From an uncultured Uliginosibacterium sp. (GTDB taxonomy: Bacteria > Pseudomonadota > Gammaproteobacteria > Burkholderiales > Rhodocyclaceae): DNA of 37,824 bases. The notes beneath the pieces are model-generated. The model worked only from the letters and a program-made list of their open reading frames with translations. It was not told the origin of the DNA and ran no database searches. The stretch lies in contig CAMFLH010000013.1 of the NCBI GenBank assembly GCA_945957295.1, forward strand, positions 1-37,824. Direction: 5' to 3'. This document shows, piece by piece, positions 17,377 through 30,929 of the stretch; positions within the stretch are counted from its first letter, which is position 1, and every line of letters begins with the position of its first letter. The position numbers and the translations under genes were made by a program.

Positions 17377-17392
17377 AGCAATTGCCGTGCCG
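17377..17392 (-). promoter_or_regulatory. Sigma-54 (-24/-12) promoter of nifB
   Basis: On the minus strand the sequence is CGGCACGGCAATTGCT. It matches the sigma-54 consensus TGGCACG-N4-TTGC(A/T) at every fixed position except the first T, with the required 10 bases between the GG and GC. The -12 GC lies about 35 bases before the nifB ATG, leaving a leader of roughly 20 bases with a GGAG ribosome site. Confidence 0.92.
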
Positions 17393-17444
17393 ATGTGGCC
17401 GAACTGTGCTGCGGCGGGCCGTCCACGCCGTTGGCCCGCTGAAG

Positions 17445-17460
17445 TGTCGCTTAGCCTACA
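17445..17460 (-). promoter_or_regulatory. NifA upstream activator sequence for nifB
   Basis: TGT-N10-ACA (TGTCGCTTAGCCTACA) is a perfect NifA-binding pattern. Its centre is about 85 bases upstream of the predicted nifB transcription start, a normal distance for NifA activation by DNA looping. It lies in the short gap just beyond the trmA stop codon. Confidence 0.85.
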
Positions 17461-17497
17461 CAGTGCGATGTGGGAAAGCGTACAGGCTGGGTCGCTC

Positions 17498-21204: not shown

Positions 21205-22725
21205 TCAGAACTGCTTCACTTCGATCCCCAAGGTTTGCACCCGGTACGCGATCTGCCGCGGGGTCATGTTGAGCAGGCGTGCCGCTTTGGCCTGCACCCA
21301 GCCGGCCTGTTCAAGCGCGGCGATCACGCGGCCGCGCTCGTCGAGATTCGGGTCGTCCAGATCGATACGGTTGGCGGCCGCGGCGGCAGAGAGTTCGCGC
21401 TGGCGGTCGATGCGGATCAACTCGCAGTCGATGTGGCCACTCTCCGACATCACGGCGGCGCGCTCCAGGCAGTTTTCGAGTTCGCGCACATTGCCCGGCC
21501 AGCTGTATTGCATGAGCCGCGTGATTGCAGATTCGCTCAGGTCAAGCGGGCGCCCTTGTTGCCTGCCGATTCGGCCGATCAGGTGGCGGGCGATTTCGGG
21601 CACATCCTCCAGGCGTTCGCGCAGTGGCGGCACGGTAATCGGCATCACATTGAGGCGGAAATACAGATCCTCGCGGAACTTGCCTTCGTCGACCGCGTCT
21701 TCGAGGTCGCGATGGGTTGCCGCGATGACGCGCACATCTACCTTCATCGTGCGGCCGCCGCCCACACGCTCCAGTTCGCCTTCTTGCAGCACGCGCAGTA
21801 GCTTGGCCTGAAAGGCAGGCGAGATCTCGCCGATTTCGTCGAGGAAGATCGTGCCGCCGTCGGCCATTTCGAATCGGCCCTTGCGTGACGCTACGGCGCC
21901 GGTGAAGGCGCCCTTCTCGTGACCGAAGAGTTCCGATTCGAGCAGGTTCTCCGGCAGCGATGCGCAGTTCAGTCGCACGTAAGGCCCGCGGCCGCGCGGT
22001 GAGTTGTAGTGGATCGCGTTAGCGATCAGCTCCTTTCCGGTGCCCGTCTCGCCGCGGATCAGCACGGTGGTGTTCCACTTTGACACCATGCGGATCTGCT
22101 CGAAGATGCGGCGCATCGCGGTGGAGTGGCCGACCATGTTGTCGAAACCATGCTGCCCGCGCACGGCACGGCGCAGGGTGTCGCGCTCCTCGGCGATCGT
22201 CTCTTTCTCCTGCGCCACATCGAGCGAGAGCTTTACGCTCTGGCCGATGAGATTGGCGATCATTTCGACGAAGCGGGCGCGTACCGCCAGCTGACCGTCG
22301 TCCAGCCGGTTGGGTTGAACCGCCAGCGCGCCATGCAGCGTACCGCCGACATGGATCGGCGCCGCGATGAAGGGCAGACGCCGTTCGTAGATGCCGAGCC
22401 GGTTCAGAAAGCGCGGGTTGCTGGCGATCGAGGGCAGGGCGACCGTCTTGCCCTCTTCAAGAATCAGGCCCAGCACCCCTTCGCCGGACTGGTAGCGAAC
22501 CGGCTCGAACTCGTCGGCCTCTACACCCTGCAAGGCGTTGACAACCAGTTCGCCGCTGTCGGAATCGAGCACGCTGATCATGCCGCGCGTAAGACCAGCG
22601 GATTCCTCCAGCACGCGCAGTACTTCCTGCGGGGCTTGTTTGACGTCGAGTGTGCGCGAAAGAATTACGCTCACACGGTAGAGCGTTTCGAGCTGGATGC
22701 GGTGGAGTGCGCCTTCGGTATCCAT
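21205..22725 (-). CDS. nifA: NifA, sigma-54-dependent activator of nif genes
   Basis: A 506-residue enhancer-binding protein. It has an N-terminal GAF domain (about 20-175), a central AAA+ domain (about 195-430) and a C-terminal Fis-type helix-turn-helix (QAKAARLLNMTPRQIAYRVQ) that recognises TGT-N10-ACA. The AAA+ domain has Walker A GETGTGKE, ESELFGHEKGAFTGA (sigma-54 contact loop), Walker B GTIFLDEIGE and the R-finger segment FREDLYFRLNV. The interdomain linker has a single Cys and lacks the C-x4-C of oxygen-sensitive alphaproteobacterial NifA, which fits control by a NifL partner. The gene begins 3 bases after the nifL stop. Targets visible here are nifB, rnfA and probably nifL. Confidence 0.97.
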   Translation of the reverse strand: MDTEGALHRIQLETLYRVSVILSRTLDVKQAPQEVLRVLEESAGLTRGMISVLDSDSGELVVNALQGVEADEFEPVRYQSGEGVLGLILEEGKTVALPSIASNPRFLNRLGIYERRLPFIAAPIHVGGTLHGALAVQPNRLDDGQLAVRARFVEMIANLIGQSVKLSLDVAQEKETIAEERDTLRRAVRGQHGFDNMVGHSTAMRRIFEQIRMVSKWNTTVLIRGETGTGKELIANAIHYNSPRGRGPYVRLNCASLPENLLESELFGHEKGAFTGAVASRKGRFEMADGGTIFLDEIGEISPAFQAKLLRVLQEGELERVGGGRTMKVDVRVIAATHRDLEDAVDEGKFREDLYFRLNVMPITVPPLRERLEDVPEIARHLIGRIGRQQGRPLDLSESAITRLMQYSWPGNVRELENCLERAAVMSESGHIDCELIRIDRQRELSAAAAANRIDLDDPNLDERGRVIAALEQAGWVQAKAARLLNMTPRQIAYRVQTLGIEVKQF

Positions 22726-22728
22726 GGC

Positions 22729-24309
22729 TTATCCGATCTCGCGACTGTCGTGCATCGGCGCTGAGGTGCGCGTCTGCGTCGGTAGCGGCAGCACCAGCAG
22801 GGCGGTGCAACCGCCGCTGGCAGCGTTGCCCAGTTCGATGCTGCCGCCGTGGTCTACCGCGACTTGTTGTGCTGCGGGAAGCCCGGTTCCCAGATGGCTG
22901 CCGAGTTGCTTCTTGGTGCTGAAAAAGGGCTCAAAGGCTTTCAGGCGAAGCGCCTCGGGCAAACCCGGGCCGCTATCCTCCACACGCACTTCCAGGCTGT
23001 TGTGTCGGGTGCGTGTGCTGATGCTGAGCTCGCGCTGCTGCCAGCCCTTCACGTTCATCGCTTCGATCGCGTTGTCCACCAGCGCCTTGAGCAGCGCGCG
23101 CAGCCGCGTGGGCGAGCCCTGGATGCCGGGCAGCACCAGCTGCGGCTGCCAACTGACCGAGACGCCCGCGGTGAGCAGGCGCACCGCGGAGAGGTCCAGC
23201 ACATCGCGCACCACCTCGTTGAGGTTGACCAATGTGCTGGCCTCAGGCGCACGCGCGGGAATCGCACCACGCAGCGTTTCGAGCGCAGCCTGGCCCGCTT
23301 TGAGTGCATCGGCCAGTGCCGCCTGCGCGGGGTCGCAGCCGCGGCGGCCCATCATGTTGACCACCGAGCCGAGGATGTTGAGCGGCCCCTCCATCTGATA
23401 CACCGCAGCAGACAGGCTTTCGCGCAGCGCCTGCTGGCGGCTCTCCTCGGCCATCACCGCTTGCAGCGCCGCGATACGGGCTTTCTCCTGTTCCTGTACC
23501 TGACGGCTGACATCCGTTGCGACCAGCAGCAGAAAGGCCTCTCCCTTGCTGGCGTAGAAGTGGTCGGCTTCGTCGCTGTCGGCAGCGACCCATACTGCCG
23601 AGCACGAGAACCAGCGCGGCGAACGCCAGTGGGGGCGGTCGAGCCGCACCTGGCGGTCGAGGAAGGCGTGGCTGCCTGGTTTGAAGGGGCCGAAGCCGCT
23701 GCCTAGTTCGTTGCGAATTGCGTCCAGCAGCACCTTGGCCGGTTCGGCCATGCCGAGATCCGACATCAGCGCCTTGTATGCAAGGTTGTCGAGCACCACG
23801 CGGTCGCCGATGTCGAGTAGTGCGAGCACCAGCGGAGCCCCGTCGACCACCGATTCGATCAGCGCCTTCTGGTTGCGCACTGCACATTCGAGCTTGTGCA
23901 GCGCGGTGATGTCGCGGTGTAAGCCCAAGTAGTGGCTGATCTGGCCCGCCTCATCAAGCACCGGCGTGACGGTCAGATCCGCAAGGTAGGGCGCGCCGTC
24001 CTTGCGCCGGTTCACCAGTCGGCCGCTCCAGGTTTCCTTGCCGGTGATCTGGCGCCACATCGATTTGTACACATCGGGCGGTGTGGTGTGGTTCGACAGA
24101 ATCGACTGATGCTGCCCCACCGCGTCGCTCGCGCTGAAGCCACTGACGCGAGTGAAGGCCGGGTTCACATATTCGATCCGCGCACGCGGATCGGTGATCG
24201 AGATGGCGATGTCGGCCTGTTCAACCGCTGCACGGAACAGGGCCGCTGGCACTTGCCGCGCTGTAGTGGGTGCGGCCTTTTTCGTCGCTGACTTCTTTTG
24301 CTCTGGCAT
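22729..24309 (-). CDS. nifL: NifL, redox- and nitrogen-sensing anti-activator of NifA
   Basis: A 526-residue protein. After a Lys/Ala-rich start comes a PAS domain (about 20-130; ISITDPRARIEYVNPAFTRVSGF, GLHRDI), which in NifL proteins holds FAD and senses redox state. A second PAS-like region and a coiled linker follow (to about 310). The C-terminal part is a GHKL ATPase-like domain with N-box LVDNAIEAMN, G1 DSGPGLPE and F-box FEPFFSTK. The H-box position reads AAVYQMEGPLN with no His, in keeping with NifL acting by protein binding rather than phosphotransfer. The ORF track extends to 24402; the ATG at 24309 is preceded by GAGG and by a sigma-54 promoter 35 bases upstream, so I use it. Confidence 0.95.
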   Translation of the reverse strand: MPEQKKSATKKAAPTTARQVPAALFRAAVEQADIAISITDPRARIEYVNPAFTRVSGFSASDAVGQHQSILSNHTTPPDVYKSMWRQITGKETWSGRLVNRRKDGAPYLADLTVTPVLDEAGQISHYLGLHRDITALHKLECAVRNQKALIESVVDGAPLVLALLDIGDRVVLDNLAYKALMSDLGMAEPAKVLLDAIRNELGSGFGPFKPGSHAFLDRQVRLDRPHWRSPRWFSCSAVWVAADSDEADHFYASKGEAFLLLVATDVSRQVQEQEKARIAALQAVMAEESRQQALRESLSAAVYQMEGPLNILGSVVNMMGRRGCDPAQAALADALKAGQAALETLRGAIPARAPEASTLVNLNEVVRDVLDLSAVRLLTAGVSVSWQPQLVLPGIQGSPTRLRALLKALVDNAIEAMNVKGWQQRELSISTRTRHNSLEVRVEDSGPGLPEALRLKAFEPFFSTKKQLGSHLGTGLPAAQQVAVDHGGSIELGNAASGGCTALLVLPLPTQTRTSAPMHDSREIG

Positions 24310-24342
24310 GGGGGCCTCGTCTGAACGATTCCTCCGTTGCGA

Positions 24343-24358
24343 TGCAGCAACCGTGCCG
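24343..24358 (-). promoter_or_regulatory. Sigma-54 promoter of nifLA
   Basis: The minus-strand sequence CGGCACGGTTGCTGCA fits TGGCACG-N4-TTGCA with GG and GC ten bases apart. Two positions differ: C for the first T, and C for the first T of TTGCA. It ends about 33 bases before the nifL ATG, as for nifB. Together with the upstream TGT-N10-ACA it suggests NifA autoactivation or another sigma-54 activator. Confidence 0.8.
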
Positions 24359-24440
24359 AAATTTCGCACACGCGCTGCGCGCTTGAGCGACATCAAATGC
24401 ACATTTCGTTGTGAGGATTCGCCGCAAGCCGCGCGCGCTT

Positions 24441-24456
24441 TGTTGCATCTGCGACA
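24441..24456. promoter_or_regulatory. NifA activator site shared by nifLA and rnf
   Basis: TGTTGCATCTGCGACA is a perfect TGT-N10-ACA. The motif is symmetric, so it can serve both directions. Its centre is about 117 bases from the predicted nifL start and about 137 bases from the predicted rnfA start, both within the usual 80-150. It is the only such site I found between the two divergent sigma-54 promoters. Confidence 0.8.
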
Positions 24457-24530
24457 CCGAAATCGACGCTCCCCGCCGGCGCTGCGCAGGCCGAAAACGC
24501 CCGCAATCCGGCACGCCGTGTTGCTTTAAC

Positions 24531-24545
24531 GCACTGTGCCGGTGC
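24531..24545. promoter_or_regulatory. Possible NtrC-binding site
   Basis: GCACTGTGCCGGTGC fits the NtrC half-site arrangement GCAC-Y-N5-GGTGC as I recall it. It lies between the NifA site and the rnf promoter, about 48 bases before the predicted rnfA start and about 200 bases from that of nifL. This could link expression to nitrogen status. A GC-rich palindrome of this size can arise by chance, so confidence is modest. Confidence 0.4.
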
Positions 24546-24558
24546 TGCATGCATCGAC

Positions 24559-24574
24559 TTGGCACGCTCCATGC
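24559..24574 (+). promoter_or_regulatory. Sigma-54 promoter of the rnf operon
   Basis: TTGGCACG-CTCC-ATGC has a perfect -24 element and a -12 GC at the right 10-base spacing from GG. Transcription would begin about 12 bases later, near 24586, giving a very short leader that begins at the AGGAGG ribosome site of rnfA. Confidence 0.9.
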
Positions 24575-24602
24575 GAATTCAGCGCAGGAGGTCTCAACCG
24601 AC

Positions 24603-25184
24603 ATGAGTGAATACCTGATCCTGCTGGTCAGTACCGCGCTGGTGAACAACGTGGTGCTGGTGAAATTCCTCGGCCTGTGCCCCTTCATGGGTGTTTCGAA
24701 GAAGCTCGATAGCTCGTTCGGCATGGGGCTCGCGACCACCTTCGTGATCACGCTCGCATCCGGCGCGTGCTGGGCGCTTGAGCACTACTTGCTCGCGCCG
24801 CTGGGGCTGAACTATCTGCGCATCCTCACCTTCATCCTCGTCATCGCAGCCGCTGTGCAGTTCATCGAGATGGTGGTGCGCAAAGTGACCCCGGAGCTCT
24901 ACCGCACGCTGGGCATCTACCTGCCGCTGATCACCACCAACTGCGCAGTGCTAGGCATTCCGCTGCTCAACGTGCAGCAGGCCAACAATTTCGCGATGAG
25001 CGTGATGGTGGGTTTCGGCGCATCCGTCGGTTTCACGCTGGTGCTGACGATGTTTGCCGGCCTGCGCGAACGCCTGTCGCTCGCCAAGGTGCCGCAGACC
25101 TTCGAGGGCGCGCCGGTCAGCTTCGTGCTGGCTTCGCTGCTGGCGCTTGCGTTCATGGGGTTTTCCGGAATGAAGCTCGGTTGA
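24603..25184 (+). CDS. rnfA: RnfA, membrane subunit of the Rnf electron-transport complex
   Basis: A 193-residue integral membrane protein with six predicted helices, homologous to RnfE and Nqr[25 protein letters not shown] at the start and [19 protein letters not shown] in the middle each carry a conserved Cys (CPF and NCAV), which in the Rnf/Nqr family ligate a membrane-embedded Fe-S cluster. The complex uses ion-motive force to push electrons from NADH to ferredoxin or flavodoxin for nitrogenase. The ATG at 24603 has a perfect AGGAGG 11 bases upstream; the ORF-track extension to 24411 is non-coding. First gene of rnfABCDGEH, downstream of a sigma-54 promoter. Confidence 0.96.
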
Positions 25185-29620: not shown

Positions 29621-29905
29621 ATGAAGATATCGATCGCCTACGCTGAGCCGGGTCGACAAGCCTGGCTCAACATCGAAGTCGAAGAGGGCACGCGAGTTCG
29701 CGACGCGATTGCCGAATCCGGCATCTACGCACAGTTTCCGCACATCGACCTCGCGAGCCAGCGGGTCGGCATCTTCGGCAAGGCGGTGAAGCTCGACGCA
29801 CCGCTGCGTGCGGGCGATAGGGTCGAGATCTATCGCCCGATCCAGTGCGATCCGATGTCGGTGCCGCGCCGCCCGGGGTTCGAACTGGATAGCGACGACG
29901 CCTGA
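29621..29905 (+). CDS. rnfH: RnfH, small ubiquitin-like protein of the Rnf operon
   Basis: A 94-residue protein of the RnfH family (beta-grasp fold): MKISIAYAEPGRQAWLNIEVEEG, then DAIAESGIYAQFPHIDL, then VGIFGKAVKLDAPLRAGDRVEIYRPI. It is encoded at the end of rnfABCDGEH in Rhodobacter capsulatus, where it is linked to Rnf function. In other bacteria it lies beside ratA in a separate context. Its molecular role is not settled. The start at 29621 has GGGAGG upstream. It is the last gene of the operon here. Confidence 0.93.
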   Translation: MKISIAYAEPGRQAWLNIEVEEGTRVRDAIAESGIYAQFPHIDLASQRVGIFGKAVKLDAPLRAGDRVEIYRPIQCDPMSVPRRPGFELDSDDA

Positions 29906-29909
29906 TCGC

Positions 29910-29971
29910 CTGCCGCATTTTTGCGGCAGCGGTTCACCTCCCGAAACAATTCGGCGGCGGTTTTTCGCCGC
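29910..29971 (+). terminator. Two hairpins after rnfH, possible terminators
   Basis: Two short inverted repeats follow the rnf operon: CTGCCGC-ATTTTT-GCGGCAG (29910-29929) and GCGGCG-GTTTTT-CGCCGC (29954-29971). Both have a GC stem of 6-7 base pairs and a T-rich loop. Neither has a T-run after the stem, so they are not classical intrinsic terminators. The second would leave about 46 bases before the beta-lactamase start. Confidence 0.4.
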
Positions 29972-30017
29972 ATGCCGAATAACATGCCCGGTCCAGGTTT
30001 ATTTGGATCGGGCAACA

Positions 30018-30929
30018 ATGGATAGAAGGGCTTTCATCTGGGCAAGCAGTCTCGCGCTTGCCGCGTTCGCGTCAGACGCCAGCGCGAAGAAAAAGTCACA
30101 TCAGAAAAAGCCGCATCATCGCAATCGCCACAGCCCGTTCGAGGACATCGAAGCCAAGATCGGCGGGCGGCTCGGCGTGTGCTGCATCGATGCGGAGAGT
30201 GGCCGCATCACTGGTTACCGCGAAGGTGAGCGTTTTCCAATGTGCAGCACGTTCAAGTGGCTTGCTGCTGCAGCTGTCCTTGGGCGTGTCGACGCCGGCC
30301 AGGAACAGCTGGATCGGCGCATCGTCATTGCGAAAAGCGATCTGCTCGAATGGGCGCCGGTGACGAAACAGCACGTCGGTGGTGAAGGCATGAGCCTGGG
30401 CGAGCTGTGCGAAGCCGCGATCACCGAGAGCGATAACACTGCAGCCAACCTGATCCTGCGCGAGATCGGCGGCATTCCGCAGTGGAACGCCTATGTCCGG
30501 GGTATCGGCGACACGCTGACCCGGCTCGATCGCGGCGAGCCCGAACTCAACGAAGCGCTGCCGGACGACGTGCGCGATACGACAACCCCGGCAGCAATGG
30601 CGGTCGATCTGCGTCGGTTGCTGGTTGAAGACAAGTTGAGCGAGGCTTCACGCGCGCAGCTCATGCAATGGATGCTCGCCACCAAAACCAGCGACCATCG
30701 CCTGCGTGCCGGCCTTAAAGCGGGCTGGAAGCTGGCCGACAAAACCGGCACTGGCAATGCCTCCACCGGTACCGCCAACGACGTAGGTGTCTACTGGACG
30801 CCAGAGGGCAAACCAATCGTCGTGACCGTGTATCTCACCCAAGCCAAGGTCGACCGCAGCAAGCAGGAAGCCGTGATCGCCGAGGTTGGCCGCTGGGCAC
30901 GCGAACCCGGAACGACACCGACGGTGTAA
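30018..30929 (+). CDS. Class A beta-lactamase with Tat-like signal
   Basis: A 303-residue serine beta-lactamase. All class A active-site motifs are present: CSTFK (Ser70, Lys73), ESDN (Ser130-Asp-Asn132), EPELNEALP (Glu166, Asn170) and DKTGTG (Lys234-Thr-Gly). Cys sits at position 69, but position 238 is Gly by motif alignment, so the 69-238 disulfide of KPC-type carbapenemases is not expected. The N-terminus MDRRAFIWASSLALAAFASDA has Arg-Arg before a mild hydrophobic core, as in Tat signals. A Lys/His/Arg-rich linker (KKKSHQKKPHHRNRH) follows. The ATG at 30018 is chosen because it begins at this signal; the ORF-track start lies inside rnfH. No AmpR-type regulator is adjacent. The hydrolysis spectrum cannot be read from the sequence. 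Confidence 0.93.
   Translation: MDRRAFIWASSLALAAFASDASAKKKSHQKKPHHRNRHSPFEDIEAKIGGRLGVCCIDAESGRITGYREGERFPMCSTFKWLAAAAVLGRVDAGQEQLDRRIVIAKSDLLEWAPVTKQHVGGEGMSLGELCEAAITESDNTAANLILREIGGIPQWNAYVRGIGDTLTRLDRGEPELNEALPDDVRDTTTPAAMAVDLRRLLVEDKLSEASRAQLMQWMLATKTSDHRLRAGLKAGWKLADKTGTGNASTGTANDVGVYWTPEGKPIVVTVYLTQAKVDRSKQEAVIAEVGRWAREPGTTPTV

Follow-up and report, generated by a model that had tools for sequence, protein, structure and literature searches.

A candidate two-way sigma-54 control region between nifLA and rnf, with one NifA site and an NtrC-type box, in an uncultured Uliginosibacterium

A question raised by the divergent nifLA and rnf operons of this bacterium is "Can one NifA site serve both promoters, and what would start such a circuit?" A sequence-only reading of the window (the whole 37,824-nt stretch that was analysed, contig CAMFLH010000013.1 of assembly GCA_945957295.1) had proposed that NifA switches on its own operon and the electron supply from one shared enhancer, a compact positive-feedback design. 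On balance we favor the interpretation that the gap between the operons is a two-way sigma-54 region in which one NifA site serves both nifLA and rnf, with NtrC as the starter.

The nifL-rnfA gap and its elements

The nifL and rnfA genes diverge from a 293-bp intergenic gap (24310-24602), and nifLA and rnf thus have the adjacent, divergent arrangement of the rnf-nifLA control region of NifL-NifA proteobacteria. The genes concerned are:

21205-22725, minus strand: nifA (TIGR01817, 663 bits)
22729-24309, minus strand: nifL (NCBIfam TIGR02938, 609 bits)
24603-25184, plus strand: rnfA (NF003481, 291 bits; TIGR01943, 276 bits)

Matches to rnfB, C, D, E and H were found 3′ of rnfA and, with a presumptive rnfG assigned from its position, they make up a nif-linked rnfABCDGEH operon reaching to about 29905. 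Immediately 3′ of rnfH is a Class A beta-lactamase ORF (29808-30929; NF033103, 332 bits). The same genome encodes ntrC, rpoN and nifH. It also has a second rnfA on another contig (G000:C18:27186-27749, followed by a later rnfE-like match), which we rejected as a NifA target because the 1.5 kb upstream of that copy has neither a TGT-N10-ACA motif nor a good -24/-12 element.

We compared the upstream stretches of NifL relatives from the window's own taxonomic family, together with those of named genomes, and after removal of duplicates kept 82 non-redundant regions in which nifL and rnfA diverge across a short gap. The window's own clade within this set (n=10) comprises Niveibacterium, Uliginosibacterium, Dactylopiibacterium and further genomes. 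The elements of the gap, with what each rests on, are:

24343-24358, minus strand: nifLA -24/-12 (sigma-54) promoter, CGGCACGGTTGCTGCA; sequence; predicted start ~24332
24383-24396, unstranded: TTG-N8-CAA palindrome, Crp/Fnr-like, TTGAGCGACATCAA; clade conservation
24441-24456, unstranded: NifA upstream activator site (UAS), TGT-N4-T-N5-ACA, TGTTGCATCTGCGACA; motif, profile and conservation
24531-24545, unstranded: NtrC-type box, a palindrome with consensus TGCACY-N5-RGTGCA, GCACTGTGCCGGTGC; consensus match and clade conservation
24560-24575, plus strand: rnf -24/-12 (sigma-54) promoter, TGGCACGCTCCATGCG; sequence; predicted start ~24586

Sigma-54 -24/-12 elements, which the sequence-only reading had placed at both nifL and rnfA, can be read directly at both operons, and each promoter is present in all of the related regions (82/82 for nifL, 82/82 for rnf). 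Against shuffles within the intergenic region the nifL element had p=0.0017 and the rnf element, whose -12 part (ATGCG) is imperfect, p=0.021. Predicted starts were set 12 nt after the -12 C, and the one for rnf falls on the Shine-Dalgarno sequence AGGAGG.

The centre of the UAS is 116.5 bp from the predicted nifL start and 137.5 bp from that of rnf, in agreement with the roughly 117 and 137 bases given earlier and inside the span of some 80-150 bp by which TGT-N10-ACA precedes the start in NifA-activated promoters. Within the intergenic region the site had p=0.038 against shuffles. Over the whole window the bare motif was found four times, compared to 4.25 times expected from shuffles, which is not significant, and we therefore rejected motif frequency on its own as a case for the UAS. 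Since that frequency is uninformative, the case for the elements has to rest on conservation. Could the motifs simply be chance matches? Their chance-level frequency across the window would fit, but the UAS is present in 81/82 divergent nifL-rnfA regions (4.4 expected from shuffles) and, on an extended profile built from the sites of the 82 regions, its 18.7 bits are the top score of any 16-mer in the window, making an origin by chance scarcely credible.

The same profile shows the UAS to be the sole good site in the gap, and this bears on a second NifA site for one of the promoters, which had been named as an observation that would count against a shared enhancer: the profile scan of the gap gave no second UAS-like site. 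We also considered that the window might have a degenerate second NifA site at 21-41 bp from the UAS, and discarded this because no such site rose above background; within the window's clade an exact second site, about 40 bp away, occurs in Niveibacterium 24ML only. Class-wide relatives outside the window's family (L147, L149, L153-L161) usually carry two NifA sites between nifL and rnf, most of them 39-42 bp apart (four helical turns), and we consequently regard the single site as a feature of the window's family. Elsewhere in this genome nifH has a similar layout, in which the UAS (TGTCGCCATCCCGACA) and the predicted sigma-54 start are about 133 bp apart. The nifB region of the window (17377-17484) has a -24/-12 element (CGGCACGGCAATTGCT) and two TGT-N10-ACA motifs 86.5 and 110.5 bp from the predicted start. 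On the UAS profile the better of the two nifB sites scores 12.8 bits and the other 6.0.

Spacing between the NifA site and the two promoters

Were the UAS to serve a single promoter, its spacing to the other should drift freely. A raw periodogram of the distances was set aside as inflated by shared ancestry, and we used instead the spacing changes inferred by parsimony on a tree built from RnfA together with the beginning of NifL. Among changes of 4-16 bp, 14/15 in the UAS-nifL spacing were of 9-13 bp, about one helical turn (p=1.5e-5), as were 11/13 in the UAS-rnf spacing (p=0.0009), or 25/28 for both sides summed. Phase tests at 10.5 bp gave p=0.0002 for UAS-nifL, p=0.011 for UAS-rnf and p=2e-5 when pooled, statistics whose limits are set by inferred starts, a hand-weighted promoter matrix and many weak forks in the tree. 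The rnf leader, a control that needs no phasing, showed no such phasing (V=0.11), and total start-to-start distances had no signal at 10.5 bp. Because both spacings change in helical-turn steps, these changes suggest that one UAS is common to both promoters, as the sequence-only reading had claimed, and they are the best evidence in these sequences for one enhancer facing both.

The principal alternative is that the UAS acts on rnf only, with nifLA driven by NtrC or constitutively and hence with no positive feedback. There is precedent for it: NifA autoactivation of nifLA is not general, because in A. vinelandii, whose gene order is identical here, nifLA is not autoactivated by NifA (PMC8219145), and nifLA is strongly NtrC-dependent in P. 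stutzeri, where an ntrC mutant had nifL at 0.13x, nifA at 0.16x and lower rnf (PMC8443478), and also in Klebsiella, according to work cited in PMC8443478. In addition, the window has an NtrC-type box 206 bp from the predicted nifL start. However, a UAS for rnf alone would not require the whole-turn changes seen on the nifL side, and Azoarcus BH72 has predicted NifA sites for nifL too (PMC3916325). We judge this alternative unlikely, while giving it more weight than any of the others.

The NtrC-type box and its target

The NtrC-type box and the TTG-N8-CAA palindrome are elements absent from the earlier reading. The former agrees with the consensus at 10/12 positions (24530-24546), its core GCACY-N5-RGTGC is exact, and within the intergenic region it had p=0.0024 against shuffles. 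The core persists in eight of the 10 clade members at a distance of 47-48 bp from the start of rnf (48 bp in the window), and in U. gangwonense and D. carminicum it has decayed. Family-wide the core is found in 28/82 regions (1.2 expected), its strict form in 22/82 (0.26 expected), and a match with at most two mismatches to the 17-bp NtrC consensus in 40/82 (about 5.6 expected). The same motif is found upstream of glnA in this genome and is doubled before torF-glnK-amtB; by comparison with the two boxes there, the gap has a single GCAC-N7-GTGC match and so lacks paired NtrC boxes.

Positive feedback through NifA alone would still have to be set off by something. The NtrC-type box conserved in this clade is the likely starter, so that nifLA is probably not purely NifA-driven. 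Consequently, the compact feedback design proposed earlier stands as far as the shared site, which the turn-sized spacings favor, but as a loop it appears incomplete. NifA-independent transcription of nifLA, named in that reading as grounds for abandoning it, may thus occur in part.

Which promoter NtrC would act on is less certain, because the distance of the box is kept to the rnf promoter and not clearly to that of nifL. The box position differs by clade: counted from rnf it may be near -48, at -86 or at -97, or else it is at -50 counted from nifL. Could NtrC at 24531-24545 then act on the adjoining rnf promoter, as an activator or a brake, and not as the nifLA starter? The 47-48 bp kept in eight clade members would agree with this, as would other lineages, whose box is 85-86 or 96-99 bp away from rnf but anywhere between 122 and 192 bp from nifL. 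However, a distance of 48 bp is short for an enhancer that loops, the torF-glnK-amtB boxes of this genome have their predicted start about 131 and 169 bp away, and a sister clade places the box at 50 bp from nifL and >200 bp from rnf. Even with P. stutzeri rnfA described as NtrC-dependent and having a predicted site (PMC8443478), we consider an action on rnf in place of nifLA improbable.

Eight loci (L098, L106, L110, L111, L114, L115, L121, L123) have a second TGT-N10-ACA overlapping the -24 box of the nifL promoter. Its distal ACA is invariant (8/8) and the three bases before it vary, and in the same loci 50 bp separate the NtrC-type box from the start of nifL. NifA autorepression is one possible role for the overlapping motif.

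The TTG-N8-CAA palindrome lies roughly halfway from the nifL promoter to the UAS, and might bind a Crp/Fnr-type or bending protein, giving oxygen control or aiding looping to nifL in this clade. TTG and CAA are invariant in 10/10 clade members and their place, about 58 bp from both the nifL start and the UAS, is nearly constant. Yet elsewhere in the family the palindrome shows no enrichment (15/81 regions, 9.8 expected), for which reason we rejected it as a family-wide Fnr site, and in most members the match of its inner bases to the FNR consensus is poor; either role is a long shot.

A proposed mechanism and its relation to known systems

We return to the reading favored at the outset. Under nitrogen shortage NtrC-P would bind 24531-24545 and from about -206 give the first nifLA transcription, perhaps aiding rnf as well. 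At low nitrogen and oxygen NifL would free NifA, which could then, from its single site at 24441-24456, reach the sigma-54 RNA polymerase of the two flanking promoters by looping and amplify nifLA and rnf together. The DNA and its relatives show the elements, how they are conserved and the turn-sized changes in spacing; from these we infer that the proteins bind and loop, in what order events run, and that there is an NtrC step with the direction given. On this basis, NtrC probably starts transcription and NifA amplifies it. More tentatively, and as an idea that may well prove wrong, we suggest that selection has kept the NifA enhancer in helical phase with two divergent promoters, whereas the NtrC box that starts the system stays with one promoter but changes sides from clade to clade, creating a two-activator, two-promoter switch that was repeatedly rewired around one constant part.

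If the mechanism is true, a single DNA site links the electron supply of nitrogen fixation to its master switch, and NtrC is the starter. The family-wide turn-sized changes predict half-turn insertion effects and so address how one enhancer serves two sigma-54 promoters. The mechanism also bears on the engineering of nifLA control, a field in which nitrogen control has already been abolished by replacing the gap between rnf and nifLA (PMC8219145). In the open-access papers that we consulted we found no description of the turn-sized spacing pattern or of the clade-dependent NtrC box.

The layout itself is already known in many nitrogen fixers, the rnf-nifLA arrangement and NifA control of rnf having been published (PMC6490700, PMC2820453, PMC3916325), and the window adds another case. 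It resembles P. stutzeri A1501, in which nifLA and rnf are divergent and both listed as NifA-sigma54 operons (PMC2820453, PMC8443478, PMC8219145), and where nifLA is nitrogen- and NtrC-dependent and NtrC sites are predicted for nifA and rnfA, much as the window has its NtrC-type box; a likely difference, judged from the class-wide comparison, is that loci beyond the window's family mostly carry a pair of NifA sites some 41 bp apart and the window one. Similarly, in Azoarcus BH72 rnf1 is NifA-dependent and NifA sites are predicted before rnfA1 and nifL, but they are reported as tandem sites there (PMC3916325), against the single one of the window. The rnf1-nifLA region of A. vinelandii shares the gene order and NifA regulation of rnf1 (PMC6490700, PMC8219145), whereas its nifLA is without the autoactivation proposed here. 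Finally, the Klebsiella nifLA promoter, as described in work cited in PMC8443478, offers a parallel in that NtrC starts nifLA and the nif genes are then activated, although the rnf neighbour is absent in that group (PMC6490700).
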